Below are positions 3,699 to 29,257 of a stretch of DNA of 32,411 nucleotides, piece by piece. The notes under the pieces were generated by a model that had not been told where the DNA came from, searched no databases, and saw only the letters and a list, made by a program, of their open reading frames with translations. The DNA lies in contig SVSK01000023.1 of assembly GCA_015064345.1 (NCBI GenBank), forward strand, positions 1 to 32,411. Reading direction: 5' to 3'. Source of the stretch: Oscillospiraceae bacterium. GTDB taxonomy: Bacteria > Bacillota > Clostridia > Oscillospirales > CAG-272. The first letter of the stretch is position 1. Each line of letters begins with the position of its first letter. The position numbers and the translations under genes are program-made.

Positions 3699-3985
3699 TT
3701 TTGTTTGCCTCCTTTGAGCTATACTTTTGAAATAGTTTGAGGCGATGAACACGGCTCCGGGTGTGTCGAGCGGGTACTTAATGAATCCGAACCATGGGTT
3801 TCGCTGGGAAATCGCAGGGCTCGGTAAACACAGCGAGACTATTGCCACGCTGCAAAACCCGTCATACACGGGGAGACTGTTCGTCTTCGCCCGATTTACT
3901 CGGACATACTCCACGGAAATTACCTGCAATTCGTCTGACAGTATTTGACGAAAGCAGCAACCTCCCGCTTCTACGCACATCAAGC
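3699..3985 (-). promoter_or_regulatory. Long structured 5' leader of the S10 ribosomal protein operon
   Basis: About 290 nt between the promoter -10 and the rpsJ ATG; contains TTCGTC..GACGAA, CCCGT-GTATG-ACGGG and CAGCG..CGCTG inverted repeats on the minus strand. S10 operon leaders can mediate r-protein autoregulation (L4 in gamma-proteobacteria); function here is inferred. Confidence 0.5.
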
Positions 3986-7431: not shown

Positions 7432-7593
7432 TGTCATCCCGAGCGAAGTACATAGTACGTAGCAGAAGGATCTAATAGAGATTCTTCGATTTGGGTAGGG
7501 GATTATAATATCAAACCCCACACGTTACGCCGACCCTACCCGCGAGAACTTCGTTCTCGTCATGTTCTTCCATGATTTCCGCTCAGAATGACA
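7432..7593. repeat. Family D inverted-end repeat, copy D1 (contains B1)
   Basis: TGTCATcccGAGCG ... CGCTCagaATGACA ends; GGATCTAATAGAGATTCTTCGA core shared with D2. Confidence 0.8.
7493..7559 (+). repeat. Family B structured repeat, copy B1
   Basis: GGGTAGGG..CCCTACCC then hairpin CGAGAAC-TTC-GTTCTCG; closely similar to B4 at 26152-26217. Confidence 0.85.
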
Positions 7594-7643
7594 AAGTGTA
7601 ACTTTTTAATACAATTTCACTTTTCGAACCATAGTGAGAAAAG

Positions 7644-7762
7644 CCGGGTGGAATATTTACGGTACGATAACATGGAGTTAGTCCGAGGTTGCGTAGCAAC
7701 TCGACGAGTTCCCTATGACAAGGAGGGAACTCGGTCTATTCCACCCACGAGACTTCGTCTCG
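7644..7762 (+). repeat. Family B structured repeat, copy B2 with two extra hairpins
   Basis: GGGTGGAAT..ATTCCACCC then CGAGAC-TTC-GTCTCG; internal hairpins 7684-7703 and 7705-7733 absent from B3. Confidence 0.85.
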
Positions 7763-9179: not shown

Positions 9180-11021
9180 ATGAAGATTTTAGATAATATC
9201 ACCTCTCCCGAGGATGTGAAAAAGCTTAGTCAAAATGAGCTTCCCATCCTCGCCGAGGAGATACGGGAAAAGATCATAGAAACTGCGGTGAAGGGCGGCG
9301 GTCATCTCGCTTCCAATCTTGGAATAGCAGATGCGACTGTAGCTTTGCACCGCGTCTTTTCATGCCCTGAGGACTCAATCATCTTCGACGTGGGTCACCA
9401 GGCATACGCACACAAGCTGCTCACAGGCAGAGCGGCGGATTTCCATACACTCCGTCAGGCAGGAGGCATTTCGGGATTCACCAACCGAGGGGAAAGCAAG
9501 TACGACGCAGTCACCGCAGGTCACTCGGGCACTTCCATCTCCACAGCAGTGGGAATAGCCGAGGCAAACCGACTTGCAGGCAGAGACAACTGGGCTGTGG
9601 CAGTCATTGGCGACGGCTCATTTACAAACGGCATGGTGTTCGAGGCACTGGAGCAGCTCTCGGGATCGGATCTGAAGCTCGTTATTCTCCTTAATGATAA
9701 CGAAATGTCCATCTCCAAAAACGTGGGCGGTTTTTCACGTTATCTTTCCACTATCCGAACCTCCGAGAGATACTACACCTTCAAAATTCGGCTGAACAAG
9801 CTGCTCCGCTCTATCCCGCTGATCGGCGAGGCGGTTGCTGTGGGCGCGTATCGGGTTAAGGAATTTCTGAAGCGACTTTTCGGCGCGGAGACTTGGTTTG
9901 AATCCCTCGGACTTGAATACATCGGCCCACTCGACGGAAACGATATCGCAAAGACAGTCTCCGCCCTTGAAGAAGCGAAGATAATGAACTGTCCCGTTAT
10001 CGTGCACATCAAAACGAAAAAAGGCCTCGGATTTGCCCCGGCAGAGGAGCATCCCGAGAAGTATCACAGCACAAGCGCATTTGTCCTTGAACCCGAGGCG
10101 GCAGAAAAAGCAGAGAAAAAGCGCACGTTCACAGATGAGCTGTCGGATTTCCTCTGTGAAAAAGGTGAGGCTGACCCCGCCCTCGTGGGAATCACCGCGG
10201 CTATGACTGACGGATGCGGTTTTGGCAAGTTTTCGAAAAAGTACCCGGAGCGGTTTTTTGACGTGGGTATCGCAGAGGAGCACGCGGTAACTACTGCGGC
10301 AGGTCTGGCAATCGGCGGAAAGAGTGAGGGACTCACACCTGTGCTCGTTTTGTACTCCACATTCTCACAGCGAGTTTTCGACCAGCTTTGGCACGACGTA
10401 GCCCTGCAAAAGGACGTACACGTGGTGCTGATGCTCAGTCATGCAGGTATCGTACCGAATGACGGCGTAACTCATCAGGGAATTTACGATGTTCCCCTGC
10501 TTACAGCCATCCCGGGCACAACTGTGTACTCCCCCGATGATTTTGACGCCTTCCGCAAGTCGGTAAACGAGGCTTACGGCGGCAAGGGACTGACTGTCGT
10601 GCGCTATCCCAAGGCAGGCGAGGCAAAATATGACGTTGATTTCACCGATCACGGCACGTGGAAAGTGAGCGGATGTGGCAAAACAGTAGTCGTCACCTAC
10701 GGCAGAGTAGCGGAAAACGTGGCAGCGGCAATTCGCAAAGCGGGAATCGACTGCACTCTCGCGGTACTGCGGCAGATACATCCCCTGCCCGACGACCGAG
10801 AGTTTATGACGCTGATCAATTCAAGTGATCGAGTGCTCTTTATCGAGGAGTCAGTTCGCAGCGGCGGCATCGGTGAACATCTTGCATCCGCTGACTGGGT
10901 GGAGAAAAAGGTACATGTCAAGGCGATTGACGACCCGTTCATTCCCCACGGCGACATGGAATATCTGATACGTTACGCAGGACTGGACGAAGAAAGCATA
11001 GCGGGATGGATTAAAGAATAA
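9180..11021 (+). CDS. dxs: 1-deoxy-D-xylulose-5-phosphate synthase (start placed at MKILDNITSPEDVKKL)
   Basis: GGGHLASNLGIADATVALHRVF, FDVGHQAYAHKLLTGR, VIGDGSFTNGMVFEAL, DVGIAEEHAVTTAAGLA. Confidence 0.96.
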   Translation: MKILDNITSPEDVKKLSQNELPILAEEIREKIIETAVKGGGHLASNLGIADATVALHRVFSCPEDSIIFDVGHQAYAHKLLTGRAADFHTLRQAGGISGFTNRGESKYDAVTAGHSGTSISTAVGIAEANRLAGRDNWAVAVIGDGSFTNGMVFEALEQLSGSDLKLVILLNDNEMSISKNVGGFSRYLSTIRTSERYYTFKIRLNKLLRSIPLIGEAVAVGAYRVKEFLKRLFGAETWFESLGLEYIGPLDGNDIAKTVSALEEAKIMNCPVIVHIKTKKGLGFAPAEEHPEKYHSTSAFVLEPEAAEKAEKKRTFTDELSDFLCEKGEADPALVGITAAMTDGCGFGKFSKKYPERFFDVGIAEEHAVTTAAGLAIGGKSEGLTPVLVLYSTFSQRVFDQLWHDVALQKDVHVVLMLSHAGIVPNDGVTHQGIYDVPLLTAIPGTTVYSPDDFDAFRKSVNEAYGGKGLTVVRYPKAGEAKYDVDFTDHGTWKVSGCGKTVVVTYGRVAENVAAAIRKAGIDCTLAVLRQIHPLPDDREFMTLINSSDRVLFIEESVRSGGIGEHLASADWVEKKVHVKAIDDPFIPHGDMEYLIRYAGLDEESIAGWIKE

Positions 11022-11039
11022 AGAATAAAGAATAAAGAA

Positions 11040-11092
11040 AAGGTACGGTCGGAGGATAACGAAATCTTCCGACTGTACCTTAATTTTTTATT
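11040..11092. terminator. Bidirectional terminator-like hairpin E1 at convergent dxs / ABC-F junction
   Basis: AAGGTACGGTCGGAGGAT-AACGAA-ATCTTCCGACTGTACCTT flanked by A-rich and T-rich heptamer tracts. Confidence 0.8.
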
Positions 11093-11145
11093 TATTATTT
11101 ATTATTTTTTATTTATTCTTTTACAAAAAGCCTTTAGGTTTTTTG

Positions 11146-16758: not shown

Positions 16759-17988
16759 ATGTCGGTAATCGGAGCTATATACGCCTACAGAACAATATTT
16801 ACCGTTGTTGGTTTTTTCTTCACAAAGAAATTCACTCCGGCAAAGAATTTACATAAATACGCTGTTGTCATCTCCGCCAGAAACGAGTCCGCAGTAATCG
16901 GAAACCTCATCGAGAGCATCAATTTGCAGGACTACCCAAGGGAGCTTGTCACGGTATTCGTTGTTGCGGATAACTGCGACGACAATACAGCCGAGATAGC
17001 CCGTGCTCATGGGGCAGTCTGCTACGAAAGATTCGATAAGGACCACGCAACAAAGGGATTTGCACTTCAGTTCTTGTTTGAGCAGATCGAGCGGGACTAC
17101 GGAATCCTAAGCTTTGAGGGATATTTCGTGTTCGACGCGGATAACCTACTCAAGCGTGACTTTATCAGCCGCATGAATGATGCATTTGACTCAGGTGAGC
17201 GAATCATCACATCCTACAGAAACACAAAAAACCTGGACGACAACCTTATCGCCGCAGGTTATGCACTGCATTGGCTTCGCACAGCTCGATTCGAGAGCCG
17301 CGGCCGCTCGGTGCTGAACTTCTCCACACGTCTCCAGGGAACAGGCTATCTTGTGGCATCCGATCTGCTTCGTGACGGTTGGCATCACACCTCCCTTACC
17401 GAGGACAGAGAGTTCTCCACAGTTGCCGCCGCAAAGGGTGTCCGCATCAGCTATCAGCATCTTGCGGAATTTTACGACGAGCAGCCCACAAATCTGAAGA
17501 TCGTTTGGCGACAGAGAACACGCTGGGCGAAGGGCCATCTTTACGCATTCACCCATTGCTTCCGCGATCTTATGCATGGCGTTGTACACCACAAGAACAT
17601 ACTTAAAAAGCTCATCTGCTTCGATATGAATCTTCTCAACACACCCTATGTGATGATCATGGTTCCCTTAAAGCTGTGCTCCGCAGTTCTGGCGATACTC
17701 ACCGCAACGGGAGACACGGCATGGTGGAAGCTGGCGTATGATATAATGAACATCATCATCTTCGAGCATTTCGGTATCATCCCCATAGGACTCCTTCTGT
17801 TCATCACGGAGCGTAAGCGTATCCAGAAGATCAGCTTCTTCAAAAAGATACTCTACGCTCTCACATTCCCCCTCTTCAGCATGATAGGCGACGCGGCAAC
17901 CTGGGTGGCATCGGTCACACACGTTACCTGGCAGCCCATTCCTCATGACGCAAAGGTGAAGATCGAGGAACTGGAGAAGAAGATATAA
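16759..17988 (+). CDS. Family 2 glycosyltransferase, membrane anchored (true start probably upstream)
   Basis: YAVVISARNESAVIGNLIESINLQDYP..VFVVADNCDDNTAEIARAHGAVCYERFD, FDADNLL, RQRTRWAKGH; C-terminal TM segments. Confidence 0.9.
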   Translation: MSVIGAIYAYRTIFTVVGFFFTKKFTPAKNLHKYAVVISARNESAVIGNLIESINLQDYPRELVTVFVVADNCDDNTAEIARAHGAVCYERFDKDHATKGFALQFLFEQIERDYGILSFEGYFVFDADNLLKRDFISRMNDAFDSGERIITSYRNTKNLDDNLIAAGYALHWLRTARFESRGRSVLNFSTRLQGTGYLVASDLLRDGWHHTSLTEDREFSTVAAAKGVRISYQHLAEFYDEQPTNLKIVWRQRTRWAKGHLYAFTHCFRDLMHGVVHHKNILKKLICFDMNLLNTPYVMIMVPLKLCSAVLAILTATGDTAWWKLAYDIMNIIIFEHFGIIPIGLLLFITERKRIQKISFFKKILYALTFPLFSMIGDAATWVASVTHVTWQPIPHDAKVKIEELEKKI

Positions 17989-18030
17989 ATGTTTAGAGAA
18001 TAGATAATAAATAATAAATAAAAGAGAATA

Positions 18031-18086
18031 AATATTGGTGCAGCAGGAAGATTTCGTCAGCCTCCGACCGCACCAATATTTTTTAT
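18031..18086. terminator. Bidirectional terminator-like hairpin E2 at convergent GT2 / GT4-CsaB junction
   Basis: AATATTGGTGC..GCACCAATATT with T/A-rich heptamer flanks; core similar to reverse complement of E1. Confidence 0.8.
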
Positions 18087-20407
18087 TTATTCTTTCTTCT
18101 TTCTTCTTTATTCTCTATTCTATTCAGCAATTGCTTTATTGCGAGAAGGTCGGCTCTGCATTTCTCACGCATCTCATCTGCGCGGAGTGAGAGCTCATTT
18201 GCGATATCCTCCCGCTTTTCCATGACACAGTCGGCATATGAGGTAACAGATGAGGCAAAATCAAGACTGCCAAGGGTGAGATCCACCATATAAGCCTGAG
18301 AAAGGCAACGCATCATTGACTTAACCTTCGGGTCGTATGAGAGTCCGATAACGGGCACACCTGCGGAGGACGCGAAAATAATGGAGTGGAGTCTCATTCC
18401 AAGGGCAAACTGCGCGCCGCCAAGGACACCGATCATCTCTGCGGCGTTCTCGGGGGAGTACGAGCGAGCAGCTACTCCCAACTCGCCCAGTCTGTCGCGG
18501 ATGATCTTGCAGATCTCGCTATCCTGTGCCGCCTGCATGGGGATAAGCAGGGGAGTCAGCGAGTGCTTTTTCGCAATATCACTGCAAACGGCAACTATTT
18601 CGTCGGAGAGTCGCTTGTCCTCCTCAGTCATCTGATGCTTTCCTCGCCCACCACCTTTCAGCGGTCTTACGGACACAGCAAAATATTTACCGTTCACGCC
18701 CACGGAGTCAAGCACCTTTGCAAGACGGGACGCAGAGCACGGTTCAATAAGGAACGCAGGGTCGGCTGTGACGTTTATTTTTTCTTCCGTCACGCCAAGG
18801 GAAACAAGCTCATCCTTCGAGTCACCGTCGCGGACCGAAACGTAGTCAGCCTCACCGATGACCTCTGCTGTGAGGCGTTTGTTGGATTCATAATTCACAG
18901 GCCCGATACCGTTTGCCAGTACACACACCTTTGCCCCTGCCTTTTTCGCCATTTTCATGACACCTGCATAGTATCCGAGGCTTCGGTGGCTGGTTGAGTC
19001 CTGCAGCAAGCTTCCGCCGCCTGAAATGAGTATCTTTGAGCGTGAAAGAGTTCTGTAAACGGACAAAACATTGAATCTCGACACGGAAGCGAGACCTGTG
19101 CGCTCTCTGTCCTCCCGTGGAGATCTTGTCAGCACCGCCAGCTTCACATCGGGGATAGTCTGTGCAAGGGAGCGGGTGATTATTTCAAGAAGACTTTCGT
19201 CTCCGAGGTTTCCAAAGCCGTAGTAACCGCTGAGGGTGATGTCAGGTGCGCCCTTTTTGAGGTTGAACTGAACGGGGTCTGCAAGTGTTCTCTCATACAT
19301 TCGGAGGTAGTCCTCAGTCATTCGGCGAGCGGTGTATTTTTGGAGAATAAACTCTCGGTTGTATTTTCCCATTTTGCCGAGCGCGTCGGGGGTGGAATCA
19401 AGCAGCGCGGAGAGATCGGAAAGGAGCATTTCCTCAGTCGCAACCGGATATCCGCGGCAGCAGAAGTTGGTGAGGATGCCTGCCTCCGTTTTGCTTTCGT
19501 CGAATATGCCGAGGCTTCCCTGGTTTCCTGCAACGATAACGGGCTTTTGTGCCGCCATTGCTTCAAGGAGAGATCGGGAAACTCCCACGAAAACATCCGC
19601 CGCGGCACAGTATTCGTTGGTGTTTGACACAGCGCCCGTAACGGTGACGTATTCTCTGCCGATCTTTCGATTTGTTTCTGCGGCAAGTGCGCGGATCCGC
19701 TCAAGCTCGTTACCGCCGCCAACCAGAATGAGGTCCGTGTCGGGATACTTTTCGGCAAGAGTGGGTGCGATATTAATCAGTCGGAATGCGGGGTCAGCAC
19801 GGTCGGAGTCAAGTCGGCTCATGTAAACGATGCGGCGGTGATCCGGGTCAAGGCTGTGCTTGGCTATGATGCCGCTGTAGTCGATCTCGGGAGAGAATTT
19901 TTCGGTATCTATACCGTTTATCGTAAGGTGGATGCGGTCTCTGCGGTAGCCGTATTCGTTCACTAAGTAGTCGGCTATATCGTCTGAGACTGCCATAGAG
20001 CGCTCACCCCAACGTGAAATGCGCCGAAGCAGTGCATTTGTGGAAAAGTTCAGATGAGCGGAGGTGACAAAACGGAACTTTCTGCCGCCTTCGAATGTAA
20101 GTCTGTCGTGTAGCAGTCCCACGATGAATGCGGGAATTCTCGCGTGAGCGTGGACGATGTCGAATTTTTCTTCGGTTATCAGCTTTTTCAGTCCGTAATA
20201 TGAGCGCAAAACTGCGGATATTTCTTTTGTGTGCAGTGGCAGCTTGACATGGCGCACGCCAAAGGAGACAGCTTCATCAGCGTACACTCCGCCGCCACCG
20301 GCAAGCGTTACATCATGGCCGAGAGAAATAAGCTCACGGCACAGCTCAAGTATATGAGTCTCCGCTCCGCCGATATTCATTGCCATGGTCACCATGAGGA
20401 TTTTCAT
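18083..20407 (-). CDS. Bifunctional protein: GT4 glycosyltransferase fused to CsaB-like polysaccharide pyruvyl transferase
   Basis: 774 aa; N-term MKILMVTMAMNIGGAETHILELCRELISLGHDVTLAG..VSRSLLEAMAAQKPVI; C-term ITLSGYYGFGNLGDESLLEII..SGGGSLLQDSTSHRSLGYYAGVM..VLANGIGPV. Confidence 0.9.
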   Translation of the reverse strand: MKILMVTMAMNIGGAETHILELCRELISLGHDVTLAGGGGVYADEAVSFGVRHVKLPLHTKEISAVLRSYYGLKKLITEEKFDIVHAHARIPAFIVGLLHDRLTFEGGRKFRFVTSAHLNFSTNALLRRISRWGERSMAVSDDIADYLVNEYGYRRDRIHLTINGIDTEKFSPEIDYSGIIAKHSLDPDHRRIVYMSRLDSDRADPAFRLINIAPTLAEKYPDTDLILVGGGNELERIRALAAETNRKIGREYVTVTGAVSNTNEYCAAADVFVGVSRSLLEAMAAQKPVIVAGNQGSLGIFDESKTEAGILTNFCCRGYPVATEEMLLSDLSALLDSTPDALGKMGKYNREFILQKYTARRMTEDYLRMYERTLADPVQFNLKKGAPDITLSGYYGFGNLGDESLLEIITRSLAQTIPDVKLAVLTRSPREDRERTGLASVSRFNVLSVYRTLSRSKILISGGGSLLQDSTSHRSLGYYAGVMKMAKKAGAKVCVLANGIGPVNYESNKRLTAEVIGEADYVSVRDGDSKDELVSLGVTEEKINVTADPAFLIEPCSASRLAKVLDSVGVNGKYFAVSVRPLKGGGRGKHQMTEEDKRLSDEIVAVCSDIAKKHSLTPLLIPMQAAQDSEICKIIRDRLGELGVAARSYSPENAAEMIGVLGGAQFALGMRLHSIIFASSAGVPVIGLSYDPKVKSMMRCLSQAYMVDLTLGSLDFASSVTSYADCVMEKREDIANELSLRADEMREKCRADLLAIKQLLNRIENKEERRKNK

Positions 20408-22488: not shown

Positions 22489-22748
22489 TACGCCGCTTCA
22501 CTCTTCAACCGAAATTGCTTATTCAACCTATTTTTGGCACTACGCGTGGGTGCGATTGATTGCTAACGCAGGTTCCAAAGGATGCTCGTGCCGAATTTCA
22601 CTGTGCGTGGGGCACTCAAGAGGCGTCAATAGCTACGCCTCTTAAGAATCACCAGCCACCACAGGGGGAAAGGCTAACGCAATTTCCCCCTTTTGGATTA
22701 CCCCCTTTGACTTTGCTACAGCCAAACCATAAAGCGACTCACGCCAAT
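22489..22748 (+). repeat. Family A structured intergenic repeat, copy A3
   Basis: TACGCCGCTTCACTCTTCAACCGAA..GCACTACGCGTGGGTGCG..CTCAAGAGGCGT-N8-ACGCCTCTTAAG-AATCACC..GGGGGAAA..TTTCCCCC..CATAAAGCGACTCACGCCAAT. Confidence 0.85.
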
Positions 22749-22750
22749 AT

Positions 22751-22806
22751 TATTTATTCTTTATTCTTTATTCTCTATTCTTTATTCTCTATTCTCTATT
22801 CTTTTC
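22751..22806. repeat. Heptamer tandem repeat (TYTATTC)7
   Basis: TTTATTC TTTATTC TTTATTC TCTATTC TTTATTC TCTATTC TCTATTC; overlaps 3' end of tadA. Confidence 0.85.
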
Positions 22807-23348
22807 TTCTTAAAGAACATCTGGAGCATTGTTTTGGACTCCTCTTCCAGCACGCCGAAGGTTAGCTCCGGTTTGTGATTGAGGGGGTATTCATTCAAGT
22901 CAAGCAGCGTGCCGTACACACCTGCTCTCAGATCCCGTGCTCCGATAACCACTCGCGGCACTCTCGCACACCAGATAGCACCACCGCACATGGGGCAAGG
23001 CTCAAGTGTAACGTACAAAGTGGAGCGAGTCAGTCGCCATCCGCCAAGCAGCCTGCCTGCCTTTGATATAGCCGCAGTTTCGGCGTGGTACGTGGCGTCC
23101 CCCCACACTTCACGTCCGTTACATTCTGCCGCAATAATATGCCCGTCACGCACGATCACGCATCCCACAGGCACGTCGTCGTATTCTTCAGCCAGAGAGG
23201 CAAGATCCAGCGCCGCCATCATGTAAAATTCATCTGCCGCAGTCTGATCCTCAAGCATAGCGGGGTTTTCCGCCGCCGCCTGCTCGTATCGCGCCACGAT
23301 CTCGTCAATTCTCGCCTGTCTTTCGGCAATTATTCTGTCTCTGTCCAT
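22782..23348 (-). CDS. tadA: Nucleoside/tRNA adenosine deaminase (TadA-like)
   Basis: DDVPVGCVIVRDGHIIAAECNGRE..TYHAETAAISKAGRLLGGWRLTRSTLYVTLEPCPMCGGAIWCARVPRVVIGARDLRAG. Confidence 0.88.
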   Translation of the reverse strand: MDRDRIIAERQARIDEIVARYEQAAAENPAMLEDQTAADEFYMMAALDLASLAEEYDDVPVGCVIVRDGHIIAAECNGREVWGDATYHAETAAISKAGRLLGGWRLTRSTLYVTLEPCPMCGGAIWCARVPRVVIGARDLRAGVYGTLLDLNEYPLNHKPELTFGVLEEESKTMLQMFFKKKRIENRE

Positions 23349-25666: not shown

Positions 25667-25754
25667 CTTCTGCCCTCCGCTCTCAAAGTATATTCCATTA
25701 TATTATATCACATTTCATGGGGAGTTTGCAAGGGTTATGAGTTATAAGTTATGG

Positions 25755-25823
25755 GCCGGGTGGAATATATACGGTTCAATAACATGGTGTTAGCCAATTC
25801 CACCCCCGAGGACTCCGTCCTCG
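25755..25823 (+). repeat. Family B structured repeat, copy B3
   Basis: GCCGGGTGGAAT..ATTCCACCC then CGAGGAC-TCC-GTCCTCG. Confidence 0.85.
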
Positions 25824-25905
25824 TAAAGTATTTTGCAAATGGGTTATGAGTTATGAGTTCACTTCGTGAAAGTGATGTTGCCTTTGGCAGTGAGTGCTTC
25901 ATTTC

Positions 25906-25958
25906 TTCTCTATTCTTTATTCTTTTAGCGAAGCGCTCGTTTTCTTTTAGCGCAGCGC
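25906..25958 (+). repeat. 53-bp perfect direct repeat, copy 1
   Basis: TTCTCTATTCTTTATTCTTTTAGCGAAGCGCTCGTTTTCTTTTAGCGCAGCGC, identical to 26295-26347. Confidence 0.95.
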
Positions 25959-26011
25959 TCCCCCTCCCGCGATGAAATTCAAACCTGTTCGACGGGAGGA
26001 TCGCTTTACCT

Positions 26012-26075
26012 TGTCATTCTGAGCGGAACACGGAGTGTGCAGTCGAAGAATCTCGAATAGATCCTCAGGATGACA
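26012..26075. repeat. Family D inverted-end repeat, copy D2 (opposite orientation to D1)
   Basis: TGTCATTCTGAGCG..GTCGAAGAATCTCGAATAGATCC..ATGACA; apical ACAC-GGA-GTGT hairpin. Confidence 0.8.
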
Positions 26076-26149
26076 GACTTTGGGGATTGACGCTCTTGGG
26101 TGGAGAAATTCAGATTTGAACGACGGGAGGGAAGACCCCTCCCCTACGG

Positions 26150-26217
26150 CCGGGTAGGGTATTATGATAACAAAACCCATACATTACACTGACCCTACCC
26201 CTGAGGACTACGTCCTC
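26150..26217 (+). repeat. Family B structured repeat, copy B4
   Basis: GGGTAGGGTATTATGATAACAAAACCCATACATTACACTGACCCTACCC then GAGGAC-TAC-GTCCTC. Confidence 0.85.
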
Positions 26218-26294
26218 TTTGAGTTTTGCTGTTTTTCTGTCAGCGGACAGACGTACATTTTCCGCTACACCAAATATTTCTTCTTTATTATTTA

Positions 26295-26347
26295 TTCTCT
26301 ATTCTTTATTCTTTTAGCGAAGCGCTCGTTTTCTTTTAGCGCAGCGC
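26295..26347 (+). repeat. 53-bp perfect direct repeat, copy 2
   Basis: Identical to 25906-25958. Confidence 0.95.
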
Positions 26348-26350
26348 AAC

Positions 26351-26379
26351 AAAAAAACCTCTGACCGAAATCAGAGGTT
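26351..26379 (-). terminator. Rho-independent terminator of the secreted Cys-rich protein gene
   Basis: Minus strand AACCTCTGA-TTTCGG-TCAGAGGTT followed by T run. Confidence 0.9.
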
Positions 26380-26411
26380 TGTAATTCATTTTTATTTTGG
26401 AGCTGTTTATC

Positions 26412-28601
26412 TTAGTTTACGGAATACTTCAGACCCTTGATGAGGTAGCAAACAGATGCAAGGTCGTATCTTGTGAGAGTACGGTTCTTTGTGTAGCCGT
26501 TTTCTGTTGCAAGACCGATGGAAACAGCGTTTGCGAGAGCTTCAGCTTCGCTATCAAAGCCAACGAACTGAACGCCGCTCTGCTTCTGAACGTACTCGAG
26601 GTATGTGTCAACGATGCGGCAAGCTGTCTGAACGTCGATAGCCTGGTCTACCTTGTCTGTGGAGATGATGAGACCCAGCTGCTTAGCCAGTGCTTCTCTC
26701 TGAGCTTCAGTGTTAAGAGTTCCCTTAACGTCTGCCATTTCAACGAGAGCCATAGCGAATGTCTTAACGCTTACCATGTTTGTGCCACCGAAGTAGGGCT
26801 TGTTTCTCACGTAGCTGAGAGGTTCCATGATGCCTGTTTCAGTTACGTATTCAACAGCCTTTTCGTAGCCGGATGCGATGAAGTTGTAGGGGTTGTTCCA
26901 CTCGAATTCAACGTAAACAGTGTGGCTTTCTCTAACTGCCTTGAATGTGTAAGTGCTTACAGCGCCAACAGACTTACCGTCGATCTTAACGTCAACGATC
27001 TTATAGTTTGCGGACTTGGGAGTGAACTTGTAAGTGATCGTATCAGCTGTGCTTACCTTAATAGCAGTTGCGTCAGCAGCCTTGCCGTTAAGTGTAGCTG
27101 TGATAGTACCGTTACCGTTTGAGGAAGCTGTGATAGCATAGTTCTGTGCTGTGGAAACAGGCATGAAGTACGCACAAACAACAGTATTGGATGTGATCTT
27201 GATCGTGAGCTTTTCTTCAGCGCCTACGTTCCGGCCGTTAACTGTTACACCTGCAAGAATGTAGCCTGCCTTGGGAGAGAATGTGATGGTCTTGTACTGA
27301 CCGTAGGTAGCATAGTTGCCGCCTGCGATGGAGTATGTGCCGCCAACACTTGCCATAACGTTTACGATGTAGAAGTTACCGATGGAAGGAGTGCATACGT
27401 AGGAGTAGAGAGGATATGCGGCTTTGTGGCCGTTTTCGCACTCGTAGTGACCGTAAAGCTTACCGTTCAGAGTGAAGTAGTAGAGGTACTCTACCTTCTT
27501 GTCGCACTCTGCACAGTCGTAGCTTTCCCTGATTCCGGGAAGTGTATAGTCGGGATATGTGAATCCGGGATCGATGATGTCGCAACAACCTGTGCAGCTG
27601 TACTTACCGCAGTAGCTGCAAGCTTTTGTGGGAGCGATAATGTTACCGTTTACAACAGCGAAAGAGTAGGAGTGGCCGTTTGCACACTTGTAGTATGCAT
27701 ATGTTACGCCTGACTGTGAGTAAGTGAACTGATACTGGAGTTCCTTATCGCAGCTGAAGCAATCGTATTCGGGAATTGTTCCGGGATAAATACCGCCCAT
27801 GTAGCAGCCGCCTGTGCAAGTAGACTTACCGCAGTAGTAGCAGTATACTGTAGGCTTTATAACTGTAGCGGACTTCTTGGGATATGCATGAGCGTGACCG
27901 TTTGAGCACTTGAAGAAGCCGTACTCTGTATCGCCGTATGTGTAGTAGAACTGGAGAGTCTGCGCGCCCTTACAGTCGGGGCACTTGCCTGTGTAATCTT
28001 CAAAGCGTGAATGAATTATACCGCAAAATGTGTTGCCGATGGAGGGGGTGCAGAAGTAGCAGTAGCGGTGATTGTGGCAGATAGTACAAGTGGGCTTGTG
28101 GCACGCATTACAGCTGGGCTTTGTTACGTATGCAACCTCCTTGTAGAAGGAATAATTACAGGTTGTGCAGAAGTAGCTGCAGTTGAGCTTACCGTTCAGG
28201 TAGCCTGTAGCAGTGTAAATTGTGTTTGTATCCTTTCCGCAGTTGGGGCATGTTTCGCCCTTGTACCAGCTGGGAATGGTAATAGAACCGGTTGTTTCAA
28301 AGATGGGTGTGAAGCCCATCTCGTCGGGATTGTCGAGGCAGTACCAAATGATCTTGCCTTCGTATGTGAAGAATTCAGCGAGGCCGTCGCAAGCGGGGCA
28401 TTCGTCATACCATGTGCCTGTGAGGGGTTCAAAGTTACCTATCTGGCAGCCATAGAGGTAATACCACTTATGGTACTCGATAAGGGTGTCAAGTCTGTTG
28501 TCATTGCAGTCGTTCTTAAAGGGAACAGTGATAGCGGATGCGGAGATTGCAAGAGATGCCAGCATCAGCACTGCAAGAACGAGAGAGAGAATTTTTTTCA
28601 T
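26412..28601 (-). CDS. Secreted protein with tandem Cys-rich zinc-ribbon-like repeats, InlB B-repeat-like segments and possible SLH-like C-terminus
   Basis: Signal peptide MKKILSLVLAVLMLASLAISASA; repeated CxxC...[YF]xCxNGH...YCGKxxCTGxC motifs; SPKAGYILAGVTVNGRNVG-type repeats; C-terminal YEKAVEYVTETGIM..LTRYDLASVCYLIKGL. Confidence 0.75.
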   Translation of the reverse strand: MKKILSLVLAVLMLASLAISASAITVPFKNDCNDNRLDTLIEYHKWYYLYGCQIGNFEPLTGTWYDECPACDGLAEFFTYEGKIIWYCLDNPDEMGFTPIFETTGSITIPSWYKGETCPNCGKDTNTIYTATGYLNGKLNCSYFCTTCNYSFYKEVAYVTKPSCNACHKPTCTICHNHRYCYFCTPSIGNTFCGIIHSRFEDYTGKCPDCKGAQTLQFYYTYGDTEYGFFKCSNGHAHAYPKKSATVIKPTVYCYYCGKSTCTGGCYMGGIYPGTIPEYDCFSCDKELQYQFTYSQSGVTYAYYKCANGHSYSFAVVNGNIIAPTKACSYCGKYSCTGCCDIIDPGFTYPDYTLPGIRESYDCAECDKKVEYLYYFTLNGKLYGHYECENGHKAAYPLYSYVCTPSIGNFYIVNVMASVGGTYSIAGGNYATYGQYKTITFSPKAGYILAGVTVNGRNVGAEEKLTIKITSNTVVCAYFMPVSTAQNYAITASSNGNGTITATLNGKAADATAIKVSTADTITYKFTPKSANYKIVDVKIDGKSVGAVSTYTFKAVRESHTVYVEFEWNNPYNFIASGYEKAVEYVTETGIMEPLSYVRNKPYFGGTNMVSVKTFAMALVEMADVKGTLNTEAQREALAKQLGLIISTDKVDQAIDVQTACRIVDTYLEYVQKQSGVQFVGFDSEAEALANAVSIGLATENGYTKNRTLTRYDLASVCYLIKGLKYSVN

Positions 28602-28686: not shown

Positions 28687-28926
28687 GTGTTTATTTTTGG
28701 TAGATTTTCACTGATTTTGCTTATTTTTTTCGTTTCAGCGGCGCAAAGTCAGTTTCCTATATTATATTAGACGACGGAAATGGGAAAAAGTTCCCGACTT
28801 TGGGAAATTTTAGCGGAGTTTTTGTGGTATTGCTGTTCTCCCGACGTCGCAAACCCGTAGGGGAGCCATCAAACTGCGTTTGATAAATCATCCTCCCGTC
28901 GAACAAGGTCAGGCTTTCCTCTATTT

Positions 28927-29190
28927 CATGCCGCTTTTTTCTTCAACCAAACTTGCACTTTCATCCTTGTTTTTGCACTGCGCGTGGGTGCGCACCCGGT
29001 CAGGGTATGCAGAGCACAAAAATCGTATATATAGTTAACCCTGCCCACGAGGACTGCGTCCTCGGTTAGATAACTTAGAGTCCTTGTGAAACCAGGCACT
29101 TAAAGAGGGGAAAGTCACTTCGTTCTATTTCCCCTCTCTAAGAACTCTCCCCTTTGTCTTTCGTGCAACTTTGGATTTTCGCATTTCTCC
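28927..29190 (+). repeat. Family A structured intergenic repeat, copy A4 (hairpin region replaced by B5)
   Basis: CATGCCGCTTTTTTCTTCAACCAAACTTG..TTTTTGCACTGCGCGTGGGTGCG [B5] TTGTGAAACCAGGCACTTAAAGAGGGGAAAGTCACTTCGTTCTATTTCCCCTCTCTAAG. Confidence 0.8.
28998..29064 (+). repeat. Family B structured repeat, copy B5, nested in A4
   Basis: GGTCAGGGT..ACCCTGCC then CGAGGAC-TGC-GTCCTCG. Confidence 0.75.
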
Positions 29191-29238
29191 TATTTATTCT
29201 TTTTTATTTATTCTCTATTCTTTATTCTTTATTCTTTC
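29190..29238. repeat. Heptamer tandem repeat (TYTATTC)n
   Basis: ATTTATTCTTTTTTATTTATTC TCTATTC TTTATTC TTTATTC. Confidence 0.75.
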
Positions 29239-29257
29239 AGCTCCGTGCATTTCCCTC

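Follow-up and report, generated by a model that had tools for sequence, protein, structure and literature searches.

Short intergenic hairpins in which a C-G pair closes a GNA loop (TNC on the complementary strand) are strongly and non-randomly concentrated in the genome of a member of the Clostridia from the ruminant gut. The pattern, which a first-pass annotation had noticed at nine sites of one contig, is confirmed as real and is wider than was then seen. The loop is a strong preference and not a rule, and the stems that carry it are arbitrary in sequence, mostly perfect, and altered on both arms. We tentatively interpret the hairpins as a structural module common to several families of short, dispersed, palindromic intergenic elements that would fold as DNA, a reading to which we give slightly less than even credence.

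Hairpins of the window and their excess in intergenic DNA

The window, by which we mean the whole stretch of 32,411 nucleotides analysed here (features are on its forward strand unless stated otherwise), does contain all nine of the C(TNC)G or C(GNA)G hairpins attributed to it. An exact scan recovers eight of them, and the ninth (26028-26038), whose 4-bp stem is under the limit of the scan, was confirmed by reading.

Perfect triloop hairpins with stems of at least 5 bp were counted in the host (G000), a ruminant-gut Clostridia MAG whose assembly comprises 2.02 Mb in 84 contigs and is 79% complete. With the window included, 662 kb were covered, of which 104 kb are intergenic; 40 stretches were sampled, and genes were called by codon usage. 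Because six stretches and the window come from contigs known for one of the element families (family A, below), the rest being mostly from unselected contigs, these counts overstate the density in the whole genome, but leave the contrast between coding and intergenic DNA unaffected. The intergenic sample holds 34 C(GNA)G and 38 C(TNC)G hairpins, 72 in all, against 2.25 expected from dinucleotide shuffles, and when gene calling and shuffling were repeated the figures were 72 and 1.4; coding DNA contains 14 against 17.7 expected. The comparison with shuffled sequence had been proposed in the annotation, and the contrary outcome that it had named, a lack of intergenic excess, did not occur. Loops of other sequence, the second point on which it had proposed to judge the pattern, are far less in excess, the other intergenic triloops numbering 194 against 132 in dinucleotide shuffles.

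The closest named relatives by DnaB are ruminant-gut MAGs of the Clostridia and Oscillospiraceae. G002, G006, G027 and G030 are strongly enriched in their intergenic DNA, and G062, G049 and G031 weakly so; the samples of G007, G016, G032, G033, G036 and G039 show no enrichment, nor do those of Ruminiclostridium/Acetivibrio and of Thermoanaerobacter/Halanaerobacter/Clostridium; an E. coli sample and a gammaproteobacterial sample contain two and four hairpins, respectively. Pooled over the five dense genomes, intergenic DNA holds 168 hairpins against 4.6 expected, a 36-fold enrichment, and 48 are left after those in related context are dropped (the filter retains hairpins with fewer than three 10-mers in common).

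The likeness to the d(GCGNAGC) DNA mini-hairpin, drawn at the outset, is upheld, in that loop and closing pair are identical, c(GNA)g and also c(GNNA)g. Stable DNA mini-hairpins have GNA and GNNA loops, and d(GCGAAGC) melts at 78 C and is nuclease resistant (PMC4686876, where Hirao 1994 and Yoshizawa 1997 are cited for d(GCGNAGC)). That motif is a biophysical one of short oligonucleotides, whereas here it recurs at the tip of long, variable stems in natural repeats.

Element families with conserved flanks and variable stems

A single family, A, accounts for five of the nine sites, which begin at 7543, 7748, 25807, 26203 and 29048 and each represent its 3' hairpin; the description of the repeats as unrelated therefore overstates their independence, while the sharing of one loop grammar by different families stands, for at least six of them. 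In family A, about 30 nt are enclosed by a 9-bp helix, GGGTRGGRT...AYYCYACCC, and after a further 1-3 nt comes the hairpin. Copy 1 (7493-7559), with the helix GGGTRGGR...ACCCTACCC and the hairpin CGAGAAC TTC GTTCTCG, is nested in a family B element (7432-7593) that has the terminal inverted repeat TGTCATCCCGAG...CTCAGAATGACA and a GTAC ATA GTAC arm. In copy 2 (7646-7762) the helix strands are split by a family E insert, CCGAG...CTCGG (7683-7734), which bears the hairpin GTTGC GTA GCAAC (7688-7700), and the 3' hairpin is CGAGAC TTC GTCTCG (7748-7762). The corresponding hairpins are CGAGGAC TCC GTCCTCG (25807-25823) in copy 3 (25758-25823), GAGGAC TAC GTCCTC (26203-26217) in copy 4 (26152-26217) and CGAGGAC TGC GTCCTCG (29048-29064) in copy 5 (28998-29064).

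Elsewhere in the window, a family B copy (26012-26075) carries ACAC GGA GTGT (26028-26038), and a further repeat carries ATCAAAC TGC GTTTGAT (28868-28884), the identical hairpin recurring with similar flanks at L050:17764. A T-rich repeat is present in two copies that are 98% identical (25901-25958, with AGCGAAGCGCT and AGCGCAGCGC at its end, and 26290-26347), and GCGAAGC and GCGCAGC do occur in both of them, as had been noted. The window also has an S10-Clostridia ribosomal protein leader (3887-3982, reverse strand; RF03136, 41.8 bits), and (TATTCTT)n-like 7-mer runs in both orientations at many of its gene ends (11009-11123, 17975-18131, 22748-22810, 26272-26316 and 29174-29249).

In the 2.02-Mb host assembly the family A hairpin pattern has 22 matches, and the pattern read backwards has none. 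The arms match in all 22, though the pattern left one pair free. Among the 21 distinct copies 97% of the cells are paired; six pairs are altered on both sides (20 cells, which fall into few classes of stem change and are not 20 events), and changes on one side only are confined to 2 cells. There are thus almost no G-U intermediates, as would be expected if the arms change together. The 22 exact hairpins are confined to eight of the 84 contigs (C17, C21, C28, C32, C41, C43, C51 and C74), which reflects either chromosomal clustering or a mixed bin. Family A is often nested in family B, which is bounded by the terminal inverted repeats TGTCATYCTGAG...CTCAGRATGACA, a feature also of MITEs of DDE transposases; inspection by eye showed no obvious target-site duplication.

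The 72 intergenic hairpins of the host sample belong to at least six kinds of element, in which the flanks are conserved and the stems differ. In family C, CAGAC GNA GTCTG stands between GGAAGGTGG and ACGGAAGGAG; in family D, GTCACC GNA GGTGAC stands between AGGGAGCT and TGAGGGAG; in family E, TTCGAC GNA GTCGAA stands between CCGAGA and CTCG; and family F comprises arrays with ATTTCAC or ATATCAC spacers. Composite copies of C and D retain their flanks, and both hairpins vary in stem and in the middle nucleotide of the loop. For family C and the ATATCAC arrays we searched with patterns of flanks only, which removes the bias of choosing hairpins by their loop. Of 59 genomes of the order, 15 contain the family C flanks, and the 56 distinct inserts so chosen have C(GNA)G as their most frequent loop class. 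Literature searches yielded no description of families A-E, nor did Rfam match them in the loci scanned; 7434-7600 has no match among phage records and 25750-26350 none among plasmid records.

Two further observations concern unusual units. Several family C inserts of G027 and G071 have the stem GCGACC GCA GGGAGC, with tandem G.A mismatches, and tandem G.A is a stable motif in its own right. At L052:6900-7620 (G000:C51), downstream of a tRNA-Met gene, lie about four tandem units of about 155 bp that combine a T-arm-like GGAGGTTCGAGTCCTC with GACGC GAA GCGTC hairpins; ARAGORN recognises no tRNA among them.

ATATCAC arrays and Gut-1

The ATATCAC arrays are restricted to the order: ATATCAC-N9-21-ATATCAC is present in 64 of its 117 genomes, with up to 54 occurrences per genome and the reversed pattern near zero, and in a set of about 100 genomes from across the phylum it is at background outside the order, with inserts there unlike these hairpins. 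Among the distinct array inserts listed, 93 of 127 contain a centred hairpin, against 22% of shuffled inserts; their triloops are C(GNA)G in 29 of 53 cases and C(TNC)G in one of 53, and 20 of 25 tetraloops are c(GNNA)g, comprising 14 GNRA and six non-GNRA loops. The arrays are inverted about a centre, with GTGATAT spacers and TNC-loop hairpins on one side and ATATCAC spacers and GNA-loop hairpins on the other. The spacers are predicted to pair mutually, which would give branched ladders of four-way junctions, and the predicted fold of L255 has an energy of about -100 kcal/mol for 321 nt under DNA parameters.

These arrays lead to a recorded RNA family, and in this sense the pattern is partly known already. 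The ATATCAC/ATTTCAC arrays match Gut-1 (RF01706) at 53-67 bits, the gathering threshold being 50; matches above it lie in ten loci (L042, L066, L069, L254, L255, L256, L257, L259, L261 and L263) of six genomes, the host and its nearest relative among them. The palindromic array at L255:150-391 (G096:C34) matches Gut-1 twice, at 150-231 on the forward and 313-391 on the reverse strand. In 2010 Gut-1 was described as a candidate noncoding RNA, known from human gut metagenomes alone, and was graded 'certainly' an RNA (Weinberg et al., PMC2864571); a full-text literature search on its name returned no other paper. The arrays described here share with it the spacing by GTGAWAT/ATWTCAC, but differ from the report in being found in many genomes of one order, head to head on the two strands of a palindrome, with variable stems and with DNA-stable GNA/GNNA loops on the complementary strand.

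The hairpins of the window itself have no Gut-1 match (the window at E up to 1, and 25700-26420 at E up to 5). A hairpin pair at 25858-25889, TTCAC TTC GTGAA (25858-25870) and TGCC TTT GGCA (25879-25889) with a GTGATG-like spacer between them, nevertheless looks like a worn array of the Gut-1 type. The rplI-dnaB gap is occupied by a Gut-1 array (L069) in the nearest relative, G006, and by families A and B in the host, which indicates that the locus turns over quickly; with so diverged a relative the comparison gave no clean boundary and no empty site.

Possible folding as DNA and the competing explanations

Several lines of evidence bear on the level at which the hairpins act. T-tracts stand beside 14 of 123 GNA hairpins and 22 of 187 other hairpins, hence no more commonly, and hairpins with T-tracts on both sides were not found. 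Ordinary terminators do adjoin some arrays, and gaps between convergent genes hold 38 hairpins against 23.5 expected (divergent gaps 20 against 33), but on the T-tract counts we reject intrinsic transcription termination, which we regard as most improbable for these hairpins. The convergent excess also fits elements residing in the 3' ends of transcripts, as in a structured RNA, though REPs show it likewise. An RNA reading, in which the elements would be transcribed and act in RNA as proposed for Gut-1, with either GNA or its complement functional, draws further on the ten Gut-1 loci and the published grading of that family, and on the intergenic enrichment of the tetraloops c(GNRA)g and c(UNCG)g (6.9-fold and 10.8-fold in the five genomes); the covariation seen here fits it as well. 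Against it, GNA lies on the sense strand in 37 and on the antisense strand in 44 hairpins between tandem genes, giving no bias towards the transcribed strand, and the L255 array matches Gut-1 on either strand, in a back-to-back arrangement. The 36-fold enrichment of c(GNA)g is, moreover, about five times that of GNRA and three times that of UNCG, and since selection for RNA stability would put these tetraloops ahead, the lead of the triloop counts for DNA. The lack of Rfam matches to families A-E in the scanned loci and the scarcity of G-U intermediates in family A point the same way, and we consider the RNA reading possible, if somewhat unlikely. Mismatch polarity, used to look for the working strand, gave 12 G.T against 6 A.C (p = 0.24) and does not decide between the two levels. 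The ViennaRNA DNA set assigns equal energy to every triloop listed, and neither its DNA nor its RNA parameters helped to rank the loops. Taken together, loop type, absent strand bias and absent T-tract enrichment lean towards folded single-stranded DNA, without amounting to proof, over terminators or a strand-specific RNA.

The first-pass annotation had likewise suggested recognition or replication as folded single-stranded DNA, and this part of its proposal fits the data better than terminators do; the link that it drew to REP/RAYT and IS200/IS605 HUH systems is unsupported. End hairpins of IS200/IS605 elements are small and read as single-stranded DNA. The present elements resemble REPs and REPINs in being short, dispersed, intergenic and palindromic, often in inverted pairs, and commoner at convergent gene ends; part of the genus has Y1 genes (a strong PF01797 match in 5 of 24 other genomes), and GNA hairpins lie near an IS200 gene at L023. 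That locus, however, is the only one of five examined Y1 loci with such a hairpin nearby. No PF01797 match turned up in the host assembly; at 79% completeness this proves little alone, and the argument is carried by the comparison of genomes: the domain is absent from G002, G027 and G030 (94, 98 and 98% complete), which have the highest hairpin density, G007 and G032 hold four and five Y1 genes and none of these hairpins in the sampled DNA, and among 117 genomes of the order the share with a Y1 match is 11 of 27 where arrays are abundant and 30 of 90 where they are scarce (Fisher p = 0.50). Three Y1 proteins of relatives score 155-156 bits on the IS200 TnpA model NF033573; their RAYT scores of 33-39 bits are below that model's cut-off of 80, and no RAYT was found. 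Nor does a GTAG or CGTC tag lie 0-2 nt from the GNA hairpin in any of the 22 family A copies, GTAG/GTGG being confined to the other helix, where three copies have GCAG/TCAG. In addition, the loop rather than the stem is constant across the families, and published REP loops are mostly TY or CMA (PMC3733652). Movement by a Y1 HUH enzyme, whether RAYT or IS200 TnpA, that reads the folded hairpin is thus rejected as a dependence of present activity; as a current process it is largely refuted, and we hold it to be very unlikely.

A different view requires no advantage for either the host or the elements: stable GNA mini-hairpins, formed on a nascent or a template strand, would nucleate fold-back template switching, and palindromes outside genes would be perfected and renewed as a mutational by-product. 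The arbitrary, mostly perfect stems, the fixed loop and the lack of coding enrichment agree with this, and quasi-palindrome template switching is an established type of mutation (PMC3820800). Yet flanks and 7-bp spacers remain identical while stems vary, the dispersal of units of 60-300 bp is unexplained, and the distribution is patchy between close genomes. Loss of the hairpin nuclease SbcCD was also considered as a cause. SbcD lacks a match above the family cut-off in G027, G030, G033, G049 and G062 (77-98% complete), but G033 has neither SbcD nor hairpins, and G000, G002 and G006 have SbcD plus many GNA hairpins; this candidate was rejected, since the presence of SbcD does not track the hairpins, which also speaks against the by-product view. 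We judge the latter decidedly unlikely.

Our preferred reading, a DNA-folding module, would take in the Gut-1 arrays as well as families A-E, within part of a clostridial order, with fold and DNA-stable loop, c(GNA)g and also c(GNNA)g, as the features kept and stem sequence left free. On opening of the duplex, for instance during replication, the GNA strand would snap into mini-hairpins and the palindromic elements would fold into branched structures; a process of replication, repair or element copying would then encounter this folded form. Stems that are rewritten and still paired would be most simply explained by fold-back template switching, in which one arm is copied from the other and which a stable cap would help, with selection for pairing acting alongside. 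Template switching leaves the conserved spacers unexplained, which suggests that they are read by something; the elements may be spread by some enzyme, although none that moves them was found.

The most far-reaching form of this proposal is a so far undescribed hairpin system at the DNA level, in which many unrelated intergenic elements of one clostridial order, Gut-1 included, would function as single-stranded DNA folds and would need for this nothing beyond a paired stem with a DNA-stable cap. One arm would continually serve to rewrite the other, and a dedicated enzyme, not a Y1 transposase, would copy or read the elements; we consider this system distinctly doubtful as a whole. Covariation is routinely taken as evidence of RNA, and here covarying stems carry caps for which stability as DNA is the best explanation. 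If the DNA reading is correct, some catalogued structured RNAs, Gut-1 first among them, would be folded DNA, REP-like elements would be able to spread without a RAYT, and these genomes would constitute a natural record of the rewriting of stems under kept pairing.
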